Shown here: positions 5,804 through 13,255 of the stretch, one piece after another
Layout of the letters: every line of letters starts with the position of its first letter
Numbering within the stretch: the first letter of the stretch is position 1
Assembly (NCBI GenBank): GCA_020438865.1
Contig: JAGQTU010000022.1
Span: forward strand, 1-52,362
Reading direction: 5' to 3'
DNA: 52,362 nucleotides
Source of the DNA: Mycobacterium sp.
Lineage (GTDB): Bacteria > Actinomycetota > Actinomycetes > Mycobacteriales > Mycobacteriaceae
Position numbers and translations under genes: made by a program
The notes under the pieces: generated by a model
What the model was told of the DNA's origin: nothing
The model's input: the letters and a program-made list of their open reading frames with translations, nothing else
Databases searched by the model: none

Positions 5804-6463
5804 ATGGCCACGATTGACGCTGAGCCCTTCCCGTTGGACTTCGAGGTCGACAGCACCGCCCTCGTCATCATCGACATGCAGCGCGACTTCGTGCTACCGG
5901 GTGGTTTCGGCGAGGCGCTGGGCAACGACACCTCACTGCTGCTGGCGGCGGTCGAGCCGATCCAGCGGGTGCTCCAGCGGGCCCGTGAGATCGGGATGTT
6001 CGTCGTGCACACCAGGGAAGGCCATCGTCCGGATCTGACCGACTGTCCGGCAGCGAAGCTGACCCGCGGTGGCAAGACCTTCATCGGCGAGGACGGCCCG
6101 ATGGGCCGCATCCTGGTCCGCGGCGAGCAGGGCCACGACATCATCCACCAGCTCTACCCGATCGAGGGTGAACCGGTGATCGACAAGCCGGGCAAGGGCT
6201 CCTTCCACGCCACCGACCTGCAACAGATCCTGTTCGACCGCGGGATCAAGACGCTGGTGGTGTGCGGGGTGACCCTCGAGGTCTGCGTCCACACCACGGT
6301 CCGGGAGGCCAACGACCGCGGCTATGAGTGCGTGGTACTCAGCGACTGCGTGGCGTCGTACTTCCCGGAGTTCCAGCGGGTCGGCCTGGAGATGATCAAG
6401 GCGCAGGGGGCCATCTTCGGTTGGGTCTCCGACTCCGACCGCTTCCTCGCCGCCACCGCATAG
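5804..6463 (+). CDS. Isochorismatase-like cysteine hydrolase, biuret-hydrolase (BiuH)-like
   Basis: A cytoplasmic alpha/beta cysteine hydrolase of 219 residues. The family triad is visible as Asp24 (IIDMQRDF), Lys128 (DKPGKGSF) and Cys161 ([10 protein letters not shown]). Several stretches recall the Rhizobium biuret hydrolase as I remember it: [42 protein letters not shown] and KAQGAIFG, the last including the glutamine thought to contact substrate. BiuH converts biuret to allophanate and ammonia. Triuret hydrolase and other amidases share the fold, so the substrate is inferred. ATG 5804 is preferred (AAGGG upstream); a longer TTG-initiated version lacks family similarity. It is the first gene of a five-gene operon, seven bases before the FdrA-like gene. 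Confidence 0.75.
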
Positions 6464-6470
6464 CCGTCCG

Positions 6471-8033
6471 ATGAGTATCGGCTCACGGTTCTACCCCAAC
6501 CTCTACAAGGACTCGGTGTCCTTGATGACGGTCTCGGCTCAGGTCACCGCGATACCGGGCATCGAGGCCGCGTCGGTGGTCATGGCGTCGGCGACCAACG
6601 TCGACAACCTCGCCCAGGCCGGGCTCGGAACATTCGAAGTCCGGCCCAACGACCTCGTGGTCGCCGTCTCGGGCACCGAGGAGGCTTGCGAAGAGGCGAT
6701 CGCCCTCGCCGACAAACTGCTGTCCGCCGCGCCCGGCGACGGTGGTGACGAGACCGCCGCTGCCGCGCCGACGACCAGCATCCAGATGGCCGTCGGCAAG
6801 GATCCGGCGCTGAACCTCGCGCTGATCTCGGTGCCCGGCGACTACGCGGCGGCCGAGGCGCTCAAAGCGCTGCGACTCGGCCTGGACGTGATGATCTTCA
6901 GCGACAACGTCACCCCCGCCGCCGAGTTGGCGCTCAAGCAGTACGCCCGCGACGCCGATCTGATGGTGATGGGCCCGGACTGCGGCACCTCGATCGTCAA
7001 CGGCATCCCGCTGGGATTCGCGAACGTGGTTCGCCGCGGTCCCATCGGGGTGGTCGGGGCCTCGGGGACGGGTACCCAGGAGGTCACGGTTCGCATTCAC
7101 CAGAACGGGTCGGGGGTCTCCCAGGCGCTCGGCACCGGCGGGCACGACCTCGCCGACGCCATCGGCGGCATCTCGATGCTGCACGGCCTGGCTGCCCTCG
7201 ACGGCGACCCCGCCACATCGGTCATCGTCCTGGTGTCCAAACCACCCTCGCCCGATGTGGCGGCGAAGGTGCTGGCGGCCGCCGAGGCGAGCGAAAAACC
7301 GGTCGTGGTGATCTTCCTGGGCGCCGACCCGGCGTCGATCACCCGCAACGGCGTGTACGGCGCGGCCTACCTGGCGCAGGCCGCCGACATGGCCGTGGCA
7401 CTGGCCCGCGGCGAGCAGCCGAGTTCGACCGAGATCGCGCTGTCCAACGAGACCCGCAGGACGCTGTCCGATCTCGCCCGGGCGATGGCGCCGAGCCAGC
7501 GCTACGTTCGGGGGATCTTCTCCGGCGGCACCTTCTGCTACGAGGCGCAACTGGTGCATCGCTCGTTCGGAATCTCGGGCTACTCCAACACGCCGGTGAA
7601 GGGCAACACCGCGCTGTCCGATATCCGGGTCAGCCAGGAGAACACGATCGTCGACATGGGCGACGACGAATTCACTCAGGGCAGGCCGCATCCCATGATC
7701 GATCCGTCCCAGAAGGACGCCCGCATCCGCGACGAGGTCGCCGACCCGACCACAGCGGTGGTGTTGTTCGACATCGTGCTCGGCTACGGATCGGCCGACG
7801 ACCCGACCGCCGAACTGCTCGCGATCATCGGGTCCGCCCGGGCGAAGGCCCGCGCCGAAGGCCGGACCGTCGCGTTCATCGGCTACGTGTGCGGAACCGA
7901 ACTCGATCCGCAGGACCGCGCCAAAGCCGTTGCGGGACTGAAGGCGGCCGGGGTCCTGGTCGCCTCCAGCAATGCCGAGGCCGCGGTCTGGTCGGCAACG
8001 CTGATCGCCGAGCGTCAGGGAGCCAGCACATGA
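6471..8033 (+). CDS. FdrA/AllF-like subunit (oxamate carbamoyltransferase family, acyl-CoA synthetase fold)
   Basis: A 520-residue protein related to E. coli FdrA, now AllF, a subunit of oxamate carbamoyltransferase (oxalurate + phosphate to oxamate + carbamoyl phosphate). Recognisable blocks are YKDSVSLMTVSAQ near the N-terminus, NLALISVPGDYAAAEA, VMIFSDNVT, MGPDCGTSIVNG and GVVGASGTGTQE (the Gly-rich loop of the succinyl-CoA-synthetase-like domain), and later DDEFTQGRPHPMIDPS and VCGTELDPQ. The length is close to E. coli FdrA. The stop overlaps the next start (ATGA), so it is co-translated with the DUF1116 partner. No allantoin or ureidoglycolate genes are nearby, so the natural substrate may differ from oxalurate. 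The family assignment is strong; the reaction is inferred. Confidence 0.85.
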   Translation: MSIGSRFYPNLYKDSVSLMTVSAQVTAIPGIEAASVVMASATNVDNLAQAGLGTFEVRPNDLVVAVSGTEEACEEAIALADKLLSAAPGDGGDETAAAAPTTSIQMAVGKDPALNLALISVPGDYAAAEALKALRLGLDVMIFSDNVTPAAELALKQYARDADLMVMGPDCGTSIVNGIPLGFANVVRRGPIGVVGASGTGTQEVTVRIHQNGSGVSQALGTGGHDLADAIGGISMLHGLAALDGDPATSVIVLVSKPPSPDVAAKVLAAAEASEKPVVVIFLGADPASITRNGVYGAAYLAQAADMAVALARGEQPSSTEIALSNETRRTLSDLARAMAPSQRYVRGIFSGGTFCYEAQLVHRSFGISGYSNTPVKGNTALSDIRVSQENTIVDMGDDEFTQGRPHPMIDPSQKDARIRDEVADPTTAVVLFDIVLGYGSADDPTAELLAIIGSARAKARAEGRTVAFIGYVCGTELDPQDRAKAVAGLKAAGVLVASSNAEAAVWSATLIAERQGAST

Positions 8034-9448
8034 AGAAGCTCTTCGCAGAGGACTTGAAGGTCGTCAACATCGGCCTGCAGGGCTTCGCCAACAACATCAC
8101 CGCCGCCGCCGGCCAGGTCATGAACATCACCTGGGCGCCGCCGGCGGGCGCCGACGCGGCCCTGGGCTGGACGCTGGCCACCCTCGTCGGCGACCCGCGC
8201 CTCGAGGAGGCCAACCGCGTCGCCTACGACCGGTATCTGGCCGCGCAGCCCCGACTGGTCGACCTGGTGCGGGCGGGCGAGGCGATCGCCGGGCTCGGGC
8301 CGGGGGAGCGGCGCATCCTGCACTCCGGGCCGCCGATCGCCTGGCCGGACATGTGCGGACCGCAGCGGGGAGCCATTGCCGGCGCCATCCTCTACGAGGG
8401 CTGGGCCGACGATCTCGAGGCAGCCGAGAAGCTTGCCGAGAGCGGCGCGGTGACCCTCGAGCCATGTCACGAGCACAGCGCGGTCGGGCCGATGGCGGGC
8501 ATCATCAGCCCGTCCATGCCGGTGTGGGTGGTCGAGAACACCGCGGCCGGAAACCGGGCGTACTGCAACCTCAACGAGGGCCTGGGCAAAGTGCTGCGGT
8601 TCGGCGCCAACTCGCCGGAGGTGCTGGACCGCCTGCGCTGGCTGGGCGGTGAGTTCTTCGACACCATGCAGGTCGCGGTGCGCGGACTGGCTGACCCGGA
8701 CCTCAAACCGCTGATGGCCCAGGCCCTGCACATGGGCGACGAGTTGCACAACCGCAACGCCGCGGCCTCGGCGCTGCTGTTCAAGCGGCTCACGTTGGCG
8801 CTGCTGGACTCCGGGGTCGCCGCCGAGGCGGTGCGCAAGGCCCTGGCCTTCGTCTCCGGCAACGACCACTTCTTCCTGAACATCTCGATGGCGGCGTGCA
8901 AGTCGATGACCGACGCCGCCGCCGGTGTTCCCGGCAGCAGCATGGTCACCGTGATGGCGCGCAACGGCGTGAACTTCGGCATCAAGCTCAGCGGCACCGG
9001 CGACCAGTGGTTCCAGGCGCCGGCCAATCCCGTTGACGGGCTGTACTTCCCGGGCTATACGGTGGCAGACGCGGCGGCCGACCTCGGGGACTCGGCGATC
9101 ACCGAGACCAACGGGCTGGGTGGCTTCGCGATGGCCGCGTCGCCCGCCATCGTCCAGTTCGTCGGTGGTACGCCCGCCGATGCGACGGCCAACAGCCGGC
9201 GCATGCTGACCATCACCTTGGGCACGAACCCGGCATTCACGTTGCCGCCGCTGAACTTCGGCGGAACACCCGCCGGCATCGATGCCCGATTGGTCGCCGA
9301 TTCCGGGGTGCTGCCGATCATCAACACCGGTATCGCCCACCGGGAAGCCGGCGTCGGGCAGATCGGGGCGGGCATCACCACCGCGCCGATGGCGTGCTTC
9401 AACGACGCCATCGGCGCGTTGGCCGCGAGTCTGGGAGGCGGGAAGTGA
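8030..9448 (+). CDS. DUF1116 / AllG (YlbE)-like subunit
   Basis: A 472-residue DUF1116 protein corresponding to E. coli YlbE, renamed AllG, which combines with AllF and AllH in oxamate carbamoyltransferase. Typical family segments are LHSGPPIAWPDMCGPQRGA (about residues 104-122), EPCHEHSAVGPMAGI (about 144-158), MGDELHNRN (about 239-247), FVSGNDHFFLNISMAACK and MVTVMARNGVNFGI. There are no membrane segments or signal peptide. Start ATG 8030 overlaps the stop of the FdrA-like gene, and the stop TGA overlaps the kinase GTG. In E. coli a third subunit (AllH, DUF2877) is required. No such gene is present in this window, so the complex here is either two-component or uses another partner. Confidence 0.85.
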   Translation: MKKLFAEDLKVVNIGLQGFANNITAAAGQVMNITWAPPAGADAALGWTLATLVGDPRLEEANRVAYDRYLAAQPRLVDLVRAGEAIAGLGPGERRILHSGPPIAWPDMCGPQRGAIAGAILYEGWADDLEAAEKLAESGAVTLEPCHEHSAVGPMAGIISPSMPVWVVENTAAGNRAYCNLNEGLGKVLRFGANSPEVLDRLRWLGGEFFDTMQVAVRGLADPDLKPLMAQALHMGDELHNRNAAASALLFKRLTLALLDSGVAAEAVRKALAFVSGNDHFFLNISMAACKSMTDAAAGVPGSSMVTVMARNGVNFGIKLSGTGDQWFQAPANPVDGLYFPGYTVADAAADLGDSAITETNGLGGFAMAASPAIVQFVGGTPADATANSRRMLTITLGTNPAFTLPPLNFGGTPAGIDARLVADSGVLPIINTGIAHREAGVGQIGAGITTAPMACFNDAIGALAASLGGGK

Positions 9449-10812
9449 AGACCGCGATCGTCGCCTTCGGCGGCAACGCACTGGTCACCGACGCCGAGCA
9501 CGATTCCATCCCGCAGCAGTACGAGACGGTCAGCCGGACGGTGCCGCCGCTCATCGACATGGTCGAGCAGGGCTGGAAACTCGTTGTCTCCCATGGCAAC
9601 GGCCCGCAGGTGGGTTTCATCCTGCGGCGCTCCGAACTCGCCGAGGCAGAGGTCGACCCGGTTCCCGTCGACTATGCGGTGGCCGACACCCAGGGCGCTA
9701 TCGGCTACATGTTCGTCAAGGCATTGCGTAACGAACTGTCCCGGCGCGGCCTGTCCCGTCCGGTGGTTGCGGTGGTCACCCACTCGGTGGTGAGCCTGGA
9801 GGACCCCGCCTTCCAGAACCCCACCAAGCCGGTCGGTTCGTTCCTGGCGGAGGCCAAGGCCAAGGAGATGGCCGCCACCATGGGCTGGACCATCGCCGAG
9901 GACGCCGGCCGGGGATGGCGGCGCACCGTCGCCTCACCCCGGCCCACCGCGATTCTCGAGACCCCGGTGATCCGCCAACTGTTGGACAGCGGCGCGATCG
10001 TCGTCGCCGTCGGCGGCGGCGGTATCCCGGTGTCCGTGGAACCCGACGGCACGGTGGTCGGCGTGGAAGCGGTAGTGGACAAGGACATCGCCTCCGGTCT
10101 GCTCGCCCATGACCTCAACGCCGAGTTGTTGATGATCCCCACCGGGGTGCCGCGGGTGGCCATCGACTTCGGCACGCCCCAGCAGCGCTGGTTGGAAAGC
10201 ATCACCGTCGAAGAGGCACGCAAGTTCATCGCCTCGGGACAGTTCGGCAAGGGCTCGATGGAGCCCAAGGTCGAGGCCGTCGCGGATTTCGTGGCGAGCA
10301 CACCGGGCTCCACCGGCGTGATCGGCGCGGCCGAGGAGATTCCGGCGATCCTGGCCGGCGAGTCCGGAACCCGGATCGTCGGCGCACCCACGGCGGCTAC
10401 CGAGGCTCCGCAACCGGACACCGGCGCGGTCCTGCTGGCGGTGAACGGCACCCTGATGCGCGGTCTGAAGCTCTCGGCCAACATGGCCGCCGCCGGCGCC
10501 ACCTTCGTCCGCGAGACCAGAACCGAACCCGTGTACCGACTCTGGACGATCAACGACGACCACCCGGCGATGATCCGCGTGACCGACTCCTCCGGCGTGG
10601 CCGTCGCGGTGGAGGTGTGGTCGGTACCCGCCGCCGGCCTCGCCGGGATCCTGCTCAACGAACCGCCCGGGCTTTCGATCGGCAAGGTTCGGCTCGAGGA
10701 CGGCTCGATCGTGCTCGGAGTGATCGGTGAACCGGCCCTGGTGGAGGGACAGCGCGAGATCACCGAGCACCAGGGCTGGCGGTCATACACGGCGGCGGAG
10801 GGGGTCTCATGA
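9445..10812 (+). CDS. Carbamate kinase fused to an allophanate-hydrolase C-terminal (AtzF-C) domain
   Basis: A two-domain protein of 455 residues; ordinary carbamate kinases have about 310. Residues 1 to about 318 are an amino-acid-kinase fold with carbamate-kinase motifs: AFGGNAL (7-13), SHGNGPQVG (49-57), VAVGGGGIPV, a VDKDIAS motif and FGKGSMEPKVEA. It should make ATP and carbamate from carbamoyl phosphate and ADP. Residues about 326-450 match the C-terminal domain of allophanate hydrolase: RTEPVYRLW, VAVEVWSVP, LSIGKVRLEDGSIVLG, EPALVEG and REITEHQGWRSY. In AtzF that domain decarboxylates N-carboxycarbamate. No AtzF amidase domain is present. GTG 9445 is preceded by GGGAGGCGGG inside the upstream gene. 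The fusion is direct, in one frame, with a short Ala/Pro linker. Confidence 0.88.
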   Translation: MKTAIVAFGGNALVTDAEHDSIPQQYETVSRTVPPLIDMVEQGWKLVVSHGNGPQVGFILRRSELAEAEVDPVPVDYAVADTQGAIGYMFVKALRNELSRRGLSRPVVAVVTHSVVSLEDPAFQNPTKPVGSFLAEAKAKEMAATMGWTIAEDAGRGWRRTVASPRPTAILETPVIRQLLDSGAIVVAVGGGGIPVSVEPDGTVVGVEAVVDKDIASGLLAHDLNAELLMIPTGVPRVAIDFGTPQQRWLESITVEEARKFIASGQFGKGSMEPKVEAVADFVASTPGSTGVIGAAEEIPAILAGESGTRIVGAPTAATEAPQPDTGAVLLAVNGTLMRGLKLSANMAAAGATFVRETRTEPVYRLWTINDDHPAMIRVTDSSGVAVAVEVWSVPAAGLAGILLNEPPGLSIGKVRLEDGSIVLGVIGEPALVEGQREITEHQGWRSYTAAEGVS

Positions 10813-11753
10813 CCGTCCTGGGCAAGAACGTGCTACCCGAGGCCAAACACGGCACGCTCCCGTTCTGGCGGCAGTACCTTCGCGGCTTCTCCCAGTGCGC
10901 CTTTCAGGCCAACGAGATCACCGGCCTGCTGTTCGTCATCGGGGTGCTGACATTCAGCTGGCGCATGGCGGTGTTCTACGTGCTGTCGGTGTTCATCGCA
11001 ACCGTTGTCGCCCGGTTGCTCAAGGCCGACCGCACACTGCTGGATCTGGGCCTGTTCGGCTTCAACTCGGGCCTGATGGGACTGGCGATGGGCAACTTCT
11101 ACCAACCCGACCTCGCGCTGTGGGTGTGGGTGATGGTGCTGGCCGCGGTGGTCGCCGTGATCGCGGTGGCGATGGGGAGGTGGTTGCCGATCCCGTTCCT
11201 GGCCGCCCCGTTCATCCTGACGTTCTGGATCATCTGGTTCATCGCCGATGCCCGGCCGGAGTTGATCAAACTCGACTTCGGGCCGTGGCCGGTGGAGGAC
11301 GTGAAGTGGGGCGCCGCCCTGGTGGCAGCGCTGGGCGCGACGCTTTTCGCACCCGCGATCCTGACCGGGGTGTGCTTCTTCCTCGGGCTGCTGGTGAGCA
11401 ACTGGCGTCATGCGGTGATCGCCTTGCTCGCCGCGTTCATCGCGGTGGCGATAGCCGCGCACGTCGGGACCACCGGCGGGGAGATCAATGCCGGGTTCGT
11501 GGGCTTCAACGCCGTGCTCGCGGCGCTGGGTACGGCGACGGTCCTGGACGGCGACCTTCGGTTGGCCGTTCTGGCGGCATTGCTGGGGACATGGTTCTTC
11601 AGCTACATCAACCGAAATGCACCGGTGCCCGCCCTTGCGTCGGGCTTCGTGCTGGCGGTGTGGGCGGTGATGTTCCTCGATTGGCTGCACCGGCGCTTCG
11701 GGCCGCGGGCGGTCACACCGCCGGTGGCTGTGGACGCTCAGCCCGCCGGCTAG
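10809..11753 (+). CDS. Urea-transporter (UT) family permease
   Basis: An integral membrane protein of 314 residues with about ten hydrophobic segments. LRGFSQCAFQANEITGLLF (about residues 21-40) and DLGLFGFNSGLMGLAMG (about 78-95) are the hallmark first repeat of the UT channel family, and a related second repeat appears as VGFNAVLAALGTA in the C-terminal half. UT proteins carry urea or related small amides across the cytoplasmic membrane down a gradient. The ATG overlaps the kinase stop (ATGA), which ties transport to the operon. The substrate may be urea, or a linear urea derivative such as biuret used by the upstream enzymes. The direction (uptake of substrate or release of urea) cannot be told from the sequence. 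Confidence 0.85.
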   Translation: MTVLGKNVLPEAKHGTLPFWRQYLRGFSQCAFQANEITGLLFVIGVLTFSWRMAVFYVLSVFIATVVARLLKADRTLLDLGLFGFNSGLMGLAMGNFYQPDLALWVWVMVLAAVVAVIAVAMGRWLPIPFLAAPFILTFWIIWFIADARPELIKLDFGPWPVEDVKWGAALVAALGATLFAPAILTGVCFFLGLLVSNWRHAVIALLAAFIAVAIAAHVGTTGGEINAGFVGFNAVLAALGTATVLDGDLRLAVLAALLGTWFFSYINRNAPVPALASGFVLAVWAVMFLDWLHRRFGPRAVTPPVAVDAQPAG

Positions 11754-11853
11754 TTCCGTACCTTTCGGCTTATTGGCGGGACCGCTGTGTTCTAACCTGC
11801 CGTCGGGGGTGCGATTCAGTTTCAGACGCTGTCGGCGTTTGGAGGTGCAGCTG

Positions 11854-12268
11854 GTGACGAAGCCCGATGATGCCGCCGCAGAGAATATCCGGCAGATGGT
11901 GCTTCAAACCGCCTTCGATGAACTCGTCGACCGCGGTATCGATCGGTTCACGGTCGACCGCGTCCGGAAGCGGGCCGATGTCGAACCCGACTTGATCATC
12001 ACGATGTGGGGGGGCCGCCGCATTCTGTTGATGGACGCGGTGCTGTCCAGTTCCGAATCGGTGATTCCCATCCCCGACACCGGCACCTTGCGGGGTGATC
12101 TGGCGATGGCGTTCGAGGCCGCCGTCAGCATCGCCTCGACCCGTGAGGGCCGCGACCCGGATGCCGGCCGCCGCCATCAATTTCGATGTGCTGTTCGTCG
12201 ACAATCCCATCGGCGCCGACTACGTCGAGCAGGTTCCCGACATGTTCCTGCACGGAGTTGCCCGGTAG
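11854..12268 (+). pseudogene. TetR-family regulator, frameshifted and truncated
   Basis: Starting at GTG 11854 (GGAGG at 11841-11845) the frame encodes a clear TetR DNA-binding domain: IRQMVLQTAFDELVDRGID, then FTVDRVRKRADVEPDLIITMW as the helix-turn-helix. Near 12140-12160 the reading becomes an Arg-rich, out-of-frame-looking peptide. The +1 frame instead continues plausibly from 12161 (AAINFDVLFVDNP, then YVEQVPDMFLHGVAR) to TAG 12266-12268. Even if the shift is repaired, the protein would be about 138 residues, so roughly 60 residues of the ligand domain are missing. A -10-like TAACCT lies at 11793-11798. It was probably the local regulator of the ureide operon and is now decayed, unless the shift is a sequencing error. 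Confidence 0.7.
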
Positions 12269-12285
12269 GACGGCGCCCGGCACGC

Positions 12286-12291
12286 TACGGT
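12286..12291 (+). promoter_or_regulatory. -10 element of a leaderless promoter for the OCD-family gene
   Basis: TACGGT fits TANNNT and ends seven bases before ATG 12299, with no ribosome binding site in between. This suggests a leaderless transcript separate from the ureide operon. Confidence 0.5.
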
Positions 12292-12298
12292 CTCTCGC

Positions 12299-13255
12299 AT
12301 GAGTGACGATCAGATGTTGGTCCTGAACCGTGCCGACCTCGTGGGACTGGGGCTGACCTGGGCGGAGATCATCGATGTTCTCGAGGACGCCTTCCTGCAG
12401 AAGTCGCGCGGTCTGGTGCAGAACCCGCCCAAGCCCAAGGTCACGTCCCGGGGCGACTCCGCCTTCATCCACGCGATGCCGGCCTATCTGGGCGGCTCGG
12501 ACCGCATCGGCATCAAATGGGTGGCCGGCTATGAAGGCAACCACGCCAAGGGCCTGCCCTACATCTACGGTGCGGTGATCATGAACGACGCCGAGACCGG
12601 CCGGCCGATCGCACTGCTGGACGGCGGATGGATCACCGAGATGCGGACGCCCGGCGTCTCCGGGGTGACGATGCGACACGTGCCGGGTGATCCCAAGCAT
12701 CTGGCGATCGTCGGCTGCGGGCTGCAGGGTCGCCGCCACCTGGAGGTCGCGCTCGAGGTACACCCGGGGCTGACACAGGTGACCGCCTACGACTACGTCG
12801 ACGGCGTCGCACAGAAACTGCTCGACAACACCGGGGACCGGGCGACGCGGGTCGCCGAGAGCCCCATCGATGCGGTCGAGGGAGCGGACCTGGTCATCAC
12901 CACCATCACCGTCCCGCTCGACCCGAAGATCGACTGCGCCAACACCGATCCCAACGCATTGTTGCTGCCGGTCGATTATGCCGATGCCATGGCGCAGGCC
13001 GCGTTCGACAACGCAGTGATCTACAGCGTCGACGACCCCGGCCAGTACAACTCGGTCATCGACATGTATTTCTCCGGACTGCCCAAGCCCACCACCGACC
13101 TGGCTTCCGTGGTCGCCGGCAAGGTCGCGGTCCCCACCACCGGACGGCGCATGTTCCTCAACATGGGGATCGCTATGGACGACATCGCGCTGAGTTCGCT
13201 GGTGCTCGACCGCGCCGCGGCGGCCGGGGTGGGTCGCTACATCGACTTCCCCTGA
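12299..13255 (+). CDS. Ornithine cyclodeaminase / mu-crystallin family protein
   Basis: A 318-residue NAD(P)-binding protein of the OCD/mu-crystallin family. The N-terminal part contains AFIHAMPAYLGG and GIKWVAGYEGN, the substrate-pocket strands; the catalytic Asp of OCD is expected at VDYADAM or nearby. The Rossmann segment is HLAIVGCGLQGRRHLEVAL (about residues 137-156), followed by VTAYDYVDG, an acidic residue suggesting NAD(H) use. Family members include ornithine cyclodeaminase, alanine dehydrogenase and ketimine reductases, and sequence alone does not choose among them. It has its own promoter and starts 30 bases after the broken TetR gene. Whether it belongs to the ureide pathway is unknown. 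Confidence 0.8.
   Translation: MSDDQMLVLNRADLVGLGLTWAEIIDVLEDAFLQKSRGLVQNPPKPKVTSRGDSAFIHAMPAYLGGSDRIGIKWVAGYEGNHAKGLPYIYGAVIMNDAETGRPIALLDGGWITEMRTPGVSGVTMRHVPGDPKHLAIVGCGLQGRRHLEVALEVHPGLTQVTAYDYVDGVAQKLLDNTGDRATRVAESPIDAVEGADLVITTITVPLDPKIDCANTDPNALLLPVDYADAMAQAAFDNAVIYSVDDPGQYNSVIDMYFSGLPKPTTDLASVVAGKVAVPTTGRRMFLNMGIAMDDIALSSLVLDRAAAAGVGRYIDFP

Follow-up and report, generated by a model that had tools for sequence, protein, structure and literature searches.

A possible ATP-saving route for triuret breakdown by phosphate cleavage in a mycobacterial operon

Five tightly packed genes at positions 5804-11753 of a 52,362-nucleotide stretch of Mycobacterium sp. DNA (contig JAGQTU010000022.1, assembly GCA_020438865.1; hereafter the window) may encode an ATP-saving breakdown of triuret by phosphate cleavage, a reading to which we give a probability of roughly 0.4. 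The genes encode a cysteine hydrolase with the residue signature of TrtA, AllF-like and AllG-like subunits, a carbamate kinase whose fusion partner is the allophanate hydrolase C-terminal domain (AH_C), and a UT-family urea transporter. A preliminary description of the window had proposed an energy-conserving pathway in which allophanate, made from biuret by a BiuH-like hydrolase, is phosphorolysed by the AllFG-like proteins. Our analysis supports this interpretation in part and redirects it from biuret and allophanate to triuret and carboxybiuret. A phosphorolytic, ATP-capturing ureide route is supported by the invariant residues of AllF and AllG, the coupled kinase and its AH_C partner, and BiuH as its entry enzyme is not; what goes beyond sequence and gene context is worded below as prediction. 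Labels beginning with L and G are our own for loci and genomes.

In the pathway that we favor, the hydrolase would convert triuret and water to carboxybiuret and NH3, as its signature residues suggest. AllF-AllG would cleave carboxybiuret with inorganic phosphate (Pi) to carbamoyl phosphate and allophanate, the same reaction type as the conversion of oxalurate and Pi to carbamoyl phosphate and oxamate. By its family function, the kinase domain would use carbamoyl phosphate and ADP to form ATP and carbamate (yielding NH3 and CO2), AH_C would decarboxylate allophanate to urea, and the UT channel would pass urea, which could be used where urease exists. The net equation would be triuret + H2O + ADP + Pi -> urea + 2 NH3 + 2 CO2 + ATP. 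AllFGH of E. coli interconverts oxalurate and carbamoyl phosphate plus oxamate (PMC11326118). Allantoate is phosphorolysed by another carbamoyltransferase, whose equilibrium favors carbamoylation, such that product removal, for example by carbamate kinase, is needed (PMC4016543). A fused protein clearing both AllFG products would pull an equilibrium that is unfavorable to carbamoyl phosphate. Structurally, carboxybiuret should keep both the acylurea (carbamoyl-amide) group and the carboxylate of oxalurate, whereas biuret would lack the carboxylate and allophanate the acylurea. We favor carboxybiuret as the AllFG substrate because it keeps both features and is the product of TrtA (PMC7948467).

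All five open reading frames (ORFs) were confirmed on the + strand of this Mycobacterium-like genome, which is 90.9% complete, at 5804-6463, 6471-8033, 8030-9448, 9445-10812, and 10809-11753. Three of the four junctions are 4-nt overlaps and the first (5804-6463 / 6471-8033) is a gap of 7 nt; the hydrolase gene begins with an ATG at 5804, the mechanically called ORF beginning further upstream. Within the genome collection, mycobacteria (L104-L117) come closest, with AllG identities of 84-98%. The five-gene set is beyond chance, since the same set recurs in other genomes.

The hydrolase (5804-6463, +) is an isochorismatase-like cysteine hydrolase (PF00857, 147 bits) whose nearest solved structures are TrtA (6XIX, 62% identity) and then BiuH (6AZO, 52%). 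TrtA and BiuH differ at F35, N41, E160, Y187, I205, and A134 (PMC7948467). In TrtA numbering, the window protein carries D24, F29, F35, N41, E72, K129, K132, S134, T158, E160, C162, Y187, Q202, and I205. The catalytic D24, K129, and C162 are thus kept, and the five discriminating residues F35, N41, E160, Y187, and I205 are all TrtA-like instead of the Y, Y, D, T, and V of BiuH. The sole departure at these positions is Ser for A134, and A134S is the single TrtA change reported as not deleterious (PMC7948467). Moreover, the protein scores 269 bits against a BiuH equivalog cut-off of 370, and in a tree of 38 rows, where the TrtA-signature rows (27/38) form a single clade (support 98/91), it groups with the characterized TrtA and not with BiuH. 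The label "BiuH-like" therefore holds for the family and fails for the specificity, and BiuH as entry enzyme was ruled out by the specificity residues and the equivalog score. The entry enzyme is predicted to be a TrtA-type hydrolase acting on triuret, for which TrtA is highly specific (PMC7948467). This substrate does occur in nature, triuret having been reported from urea fertilizer, amoeba, and human urine (PMC7948467).

The AllF/FdrA-like subunit (6471-8033, +), of the succinyl-CoA-synthetase-like fold family, scores 461 bits against the FdrA subfamily model NF004760 (cut-off 433), matches PDB 3DMY ("Protein fdrA", E 1e-79), and is 38.5% identical to AllF of E. coli K-12. The AllG/DUF1116-like subunit (8030-9448, +) matches PF06545 with 309 bits and PDB 3CLQ ("uncharacterized protein", E 8e-119), and is 46.2% identical to K-12 AllG. 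Both assignments agree with those made earlier. Residues invariant in >97% of 115 (AllF) and 127 (AllG) rows, K-12 included, are also present in AllF and AllG of the window. In a quick-method tree of 86 AllG rows, the rows of loci that share the window's gene set (module rows) cluster apart from K-12 AllG. Asn194 of AllG occurs in >95% of 65 module rows, whereas this position is Tyr in 33 and Asn in 13 of 62 non-module rows and Tyr in K-12.

The fusion protein (9445-10812, +) links a carbamate kinase domain (residues 1-312; 9445-10380, +) to an AH_C domain (10432-10791, +). The kinase assignment, already made in the preliminary description, is borne out by NF009007 (336 bits, cut-off 266) and PDB 1E19 carbamate kinase (E 1e-79); TIGR00746 gave 350 bits, narrowly under its cut-off of 358. 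We identified the partner domain, left unnamed there, as PF21986 (residues 330-449, 129 bits versus a cut-off of 27), with structural matches to PDB 5C5Z (E 1e-41) and to allophanate hydrolase 4GYR (E 1e-15). The protein consists of kinase and AH_C only, without the AtzF amidase domain. Tyr381, Arg382, Arg395, Glu407, Asp436, and Trp462 (numbered from the ORF starting at 9394) are conserved in both AH_C sets that we compared, 68 module rows and 30 AtzF-set rows, of which L028-L031 are module rows, leaving 26 presumed AtzF; the start of the domain differs between the sets. As AH_C is a piece of allophanate hydrolase, it ties the kinase to ureide chemistry. The C domain of AtzF is reportedly a decarboxylase acting on N-carboxycarbamate. 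PDB 5C5Z is presumably the E. coli protein c4763. That protein is cited as an allophanate-hydrolase homologue (PMC7558591), the lone AH_C of E. coli CFT073 is annotated as "allophanate hydrolase-related protein," and the N and C domains of allophanate hydrolase catalyze sequential reactions (PMC5770610).

The last gene (10809-11753, +) encodes a UT-family urea transporter or channel, as had been proposed (PF03253, 156 bits, cut-off 25); its score against TIGR03441 (urea_trans_yut) was 118 bits, under the cut-off of 275. The earlier statement that no allantoin genes or AtzF amidase lie nearby also held, as phmmer searches with K-12 AllB, AllC, and AllD and the amidase part of AtzF matched nothing in the window's first 20 kb, to which the search of this genome for allantoin genes was limited. 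The source genome yielded neither a second AH_C nor a second strong BiuH/TrtA, the next best match being 50 bits.

We compared 127 AllG loci, a non-random sample made up of 40 loci from 51 non-window matches among 396 genomes drawn from the phylum (the 11 lowest-ranked excluded), the best 80 of 146 loci confirmed when AllG of the window and of E. coli served as scan seeds, and 7 others (the window, L062, L063, L184, L186, L188, and L192; L061 overlaps L062 and was excluded). Owing to the seeds, the 80 loci lean towards the module, and because many contigs are short, absences at loci are weak. A complete TrtA-type hydrolase was found at 70 of the 127 loci and a BiuH-type at 10, seven of which also have a complete TrtA-type and one (L157) a split one; the TrtA-type copy of L121 has two further active-site positions changed. 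AH_C adjoins 65 of the 70 TrtA-bearing AllG loci versus 3 of the 57 others (L157, L161, and L175). The kinase is present in all 68 AH_C loci and AllH in 41 of them; a kinase-AH_C fusion was flagged in 21, one with broken frames (L122). Gene orders include hydrolase-(AllH)-AllF-AllG-kinase-AH_C, AH_C before the hydrolase, and kinase and AH_C fused, and TrtA and AllFG remain together despite these rearrangements. The module is carried by, among others, Mycobacterium, Nonomuraea, Serratia, Rahnella, Caballeronia, Rhodospirillales, Spirochaetales, Desulfovibrio, and Nitrospira. Of 5426 complete E. coli genomes, 1547 matched the form found in E. coli CFT073, 1542 of them across at least 80% of the query; the matches fall at 1489 chromosomal and 127 plasmid places, one plasmid being that of L063 (pSA186_2). 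Mapped on an AllG tree of the 51 rows whose stretches are long, the TrtA and AH_C labels require 3 and 2 changes, respectively; so few changes indicate that their link is conserved, not repeatedly re-gained. An independent-pairs test of the two labels on the AllG tree gave 2-3 independent pairs, with b never differing in them. The combination of TrtA-type hydrolase, AllF, AllG, kinase, and AH_C recurs across phyla as a module. No relative of AllB, AllC, AllD, cupin, or HpxZ was found in 73 module loci, and AtzD lay beside the module in 0/73.

To see which other ureide enzymes accompany the module, we searched 36 module genomes of unstated completeness, hand-picked from the module loci, as wholes. 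BiuH over its curated cut-off was found in 9 and missing from 27, which also speaks against BiuH as the entry enzyme and leaves no known enzyme to make allophanate from biuret in those 27. An AtzF-length AH_C protein, called by open-frame length and position, occurs outside the module in 8 genomes (G548, G550, G554-G557, G559, and G560); in G564 AtzF is the module's own, and the remaining 27 show no AtzF-length protein. Urease alpha was found in 27 of the 36, the G560 case being a 25.7-bit scrap. In most of the 36 genomes, therefore, carboxybiuret or biuret has no known set of enzymes leading through allophanate to ammonia, unless other families do this. Some loci bear on the substrates of AllFG and AH_C. 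A full AtzF occupies the usual position of the lone AH_C in L179, where a TrtA-type hydrolase is present and no BiuH is in the stretch, and in L161, where the contig is truncated and the hydrolase was not seen; in L157 AtzF follows TrtA. Such replacement suggests that allophanate is the product expected there, as carboxybiuret phosphorolysis would give. Likewise, Mycobacterium pinniadriaticum (G536; L199:6530-8888) has consecutive genes for an IclR regulator, a BiuH-type hydrolase, a lone AH_C of the module type, and a CLC-family channel, which might form a minimal operon from biuret to urea, and no AtzF-length protein was found in it outside the fused module; here, AH_C appears to serve allophanate.

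Several observations weigh against a pathway through carboxybiuret phosphorolysis. The oxamic transcarbamylase of E. coli requires the three genes AllFGH (PMC11326118), and no PF11392 match for AllH was found in the 90.9% complete source genome; AllH is also missing at the 18 other mycobacterial AllG loci in our table (one truncated). AH_C as a substitute for AllH was considered and ruled out, AllH being present in 41 of the 68 AH_C loci and absent in 27. No urease alpha was found in the source genome at the same completeness. UT occurs in only 5 of the 68 AH_C loci, compared with a CodB-type permease in 26. Five of the 70 TrtA-bearing AllG loci lack AH_C (L089, L101, and L171-L173), and AH_C was found in 35 of the 36 module genomes, with none in G568. 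The module hydrolases fall outside the subclade of the 38-row tree that holds the characterized TrtA, and the module is approximately one clade in AllG, such that the gene association is not repeatedly independent. Lastly, where clusters lack AllFG, TrtA is followed by a gene for a cupin (L187, L194), an HpxZ/AtzH-type protein (L193), or a GntR regulator (L190). In Nitrospira L145 (14757-18047), which has BiuH-type and TrtA-type hydrolases, a 131-aa lone AH_C lies directly 3' of the TrtA-type gene, a place that fits a carboxybiuret decarboxylase instead.

That arrangement leads to the main rival, in which the order of the middle steps is reversed: AH_C would convert carboxybiuret to biuret, AllFG would cleave biuret to carbamoyl phosphate and urea, the kinase would form ATP, and UT would carry the urea, with the same net equation. 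We regard this as unlikely overall, though a serious competitor. It would place AH_C where the AllFG-free clusters have a cupin or an HpxZ/AtzH-type protein, an AtzH protein being a probable decarboxylating enzyme (PMC6219798), and a urea product is consistent with UT. Against it, AllFG would have to act on a compound lacking oxalurate's carboxylate, and both the AtzF that stands in for AH_C without BiuH in L179 and the BiuH-AH_C pair indicate allophanate as the AH_C substrate. The version of the preliminary description, with AllFG turning allophanate into carbamoyl phosphate and carbamate and the hydrolase feeding in biuret or triuret, seems to us quite improbable. The AH_C domain does connect the kinase to allophanate metabolism, and four of five Nitrospira genomes have BiuH and no AtzF-length protein, so another allophanate consumer is needed there. 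Nevertheless, the TrtA-type hydrolase and the absence of BiuH from 27 of the 36 genomes make AllFG on allophanate the weaker version; AtzF beside AllFG in L157, L161, and L179 would be redundant, and allophanate should offer no acylurea group.

Two further explanations keep the AllFG chemistry and change the substrate. The cluster could house two routes, with AllFG and kinase acting on oxalurate as in E. coli and the hydrolase and AH_C acting separately on triuret or biuret. Homology to AllFGH-AllK and the published reading for nitrifiers (PMC12625717) are in its favor, but the kinase is fused to AH_C and not to an oxalurate-pathway protein, the 73 module loci hold no AllB, AllC, or AllD relative, TrtA and AllFG are not separated even where the gene order differs, and module AllG rows group apart from K-12 AllG; we find it improbable. 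Equally hard to credit is a TrtA-like hydrolase acting on a purine- or pyrimidine-derived ureide, with AllFG acting on its product. The position of the module hydrolases outside the characterized TrtA subclade would allow this, as would the relatives' transporters, which are CodB-type in 26 of 68 AH_C loci or nucleobase-permease type in 15 of 73 module loci, and other AllFGH-kinase clusters with an AtzD-family enzyme, a molybdenum hydroxylase, and a cytosine-deaminase-like protein. Against it, the hydrolase retains the TrtA residue at each of the five discriminating positions, and TrtA shows high specificity for triuret.

The operon can be compared with several described systems. With E. coli K-12 AllFGH and AllK (PMC11326118) it shares AllF, AllG, and carbamate kinase in one operon and the invariant residues, and phosphorolysis yielding carbamoyl phosphate and ATP would be expected in both; unlike that system, the window lacks AllH and adjoining allantoin genes and adds a TrtA-type hydrolase, AH_C, and UT. 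The triuret pathway TrtA-TrtB-BiuH-AtzF (PMC7948467) has in common the TrtA-type first enzyme and a piece of AtzF, whereas the window has no BiuH, AtzF amidase, or cupin/HpxZ-type neighbor; as it has AllFG and a kinase instead, ATP could be conserved. Clusters of comammox and ammonia-oxidizing archaea, biuH-trtA-allFGHK-"atzF" (PMC12625717), share the TrtA-type hydrolase, AllF, AllG, and kinase, and additionally hold BiuH, AllH, and an ABC nucleoside-type transporter. The co-occurrence of biuH, trtA, atzF, and allFGHK in comammox has been read as separate biuret and oxalurate routes (PMC12625717). Four Nitrospira genomes (G561, G562, G563, and G565) have lone AH_C only, in frames of 146-196 aa, and no AtzF-length protein, whereas G564 has one; thus, the published "atzF" of some such genomes may be a lone domain. 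In E. coli CFT073 (L062:5439-11403) and BEN2908, hydrolase, AllH, AllF, AllG, kinase, lone AH_C, and a CodB-type permease lie together. This cluster shares the module and the TrtA signature with the window (AllG 65% identical), but AH_C is unfused, AllH is present, and the CodB-type permease takes the place of UT; it has been read as pyrimidine-related (PMC12928451). Ureidoglycine carbamoyltransferase of Rubrobacter resembles the proposed system in cleaving a ureide with phosphate to give carbamoyl phosphate and in lying next to a carbamate kinase, yet belongs to an unrelated, ATCase-like family and acts on allantoate (PMC4016543).

A number of related arrangements were observed alongside the module. 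Among non-module AllG loci, 12 of 54, all actinobacterial, have an AtzD-family ring-opening hydrolase near AllH-AllF-AllG (L070, L071, L072, L074, L077, L078, L080, L082, L083, L086, L088, and L090), and three such proteins that we scanned were all over the cyanuric-acid-hydrolase cut-off. L072 (535-17690) also holds a molybdenum hydroxylase, a cytosine-deaminase-like protein, a nucleobase permease, and an amidase, yet this setting suggests a possible sister pathway from barbiturate via ureidomalonate to phosphorolysis. A Peptoclostridium plasmid hydrolase (L188:4544-15147) has His in place of E160 and Phe in place of Y187, a third pattern, and stands beside a PucR regulator, two xanthine permeases, and AllH-AllF-AllG-kinase, with no AH_C, and probably has another substrate. 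The betaproteobacterial locus L167 (1367-10434) has one BiuH-type and two TrtA-type hydrolases, one of the latter heading AllH-AllF-AllG-kinase, as though a copy of its own were required by the module. In Mycolicibacterium litorale F4 (L122:8863-11778), the AllG and kinase-AH_C frames are split by decay or sequencing error. A remoter class of lone AH_C (64-92 bits) occurs in 16 stretches (L200-L215), mostly of mycobacterial relatives and same-order genomes, with no TrtA, BiuH, or AllFG adjoining and some near ABC-type ATPases. In the window itself, a short ORF (11773-12306) that follows the operon, ahead of an ornithine-cyclodeaminase-family gene (12299-13255), has no Pfam match and by eye resembles the start of a small regulator.

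Breakdown of triuret, biuret, and cyanuric acid is described as hydrolysis and decarboxylation without energy gain (PMC7948467, PMC6219798). Our literature search, which left most subscription journals uncovered, returned no proposal of AllFG-like phosphorolysis of biuret, carboxybiuret, or allophanate, nor of such a triuret pathway. We tentatively propose that AllF-AllG phosphorolyses carboxybiuret as part of a widespread, so far unrecognized triuret route that conserves ATP and relies on a single kinase-AH_C protein to clear both products. More broadly, and under the same reservation, AllFG(H) could be an acylurea phosphorylase family tuned to oxalurate, to carboxybiuret, and, in the AtzD-family-associated actinobacterial clusters, to ureidomalonate or carboxybiuret. 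If this is true, ureide metabolism would gain an ATP-forming entry, AllFG enzymes would have a second known substrate, a pathway role would fall to lone AH_C proteins, including that of E. coli CFT073, and the published nitrifier and E. coli clusters would have to be reread.

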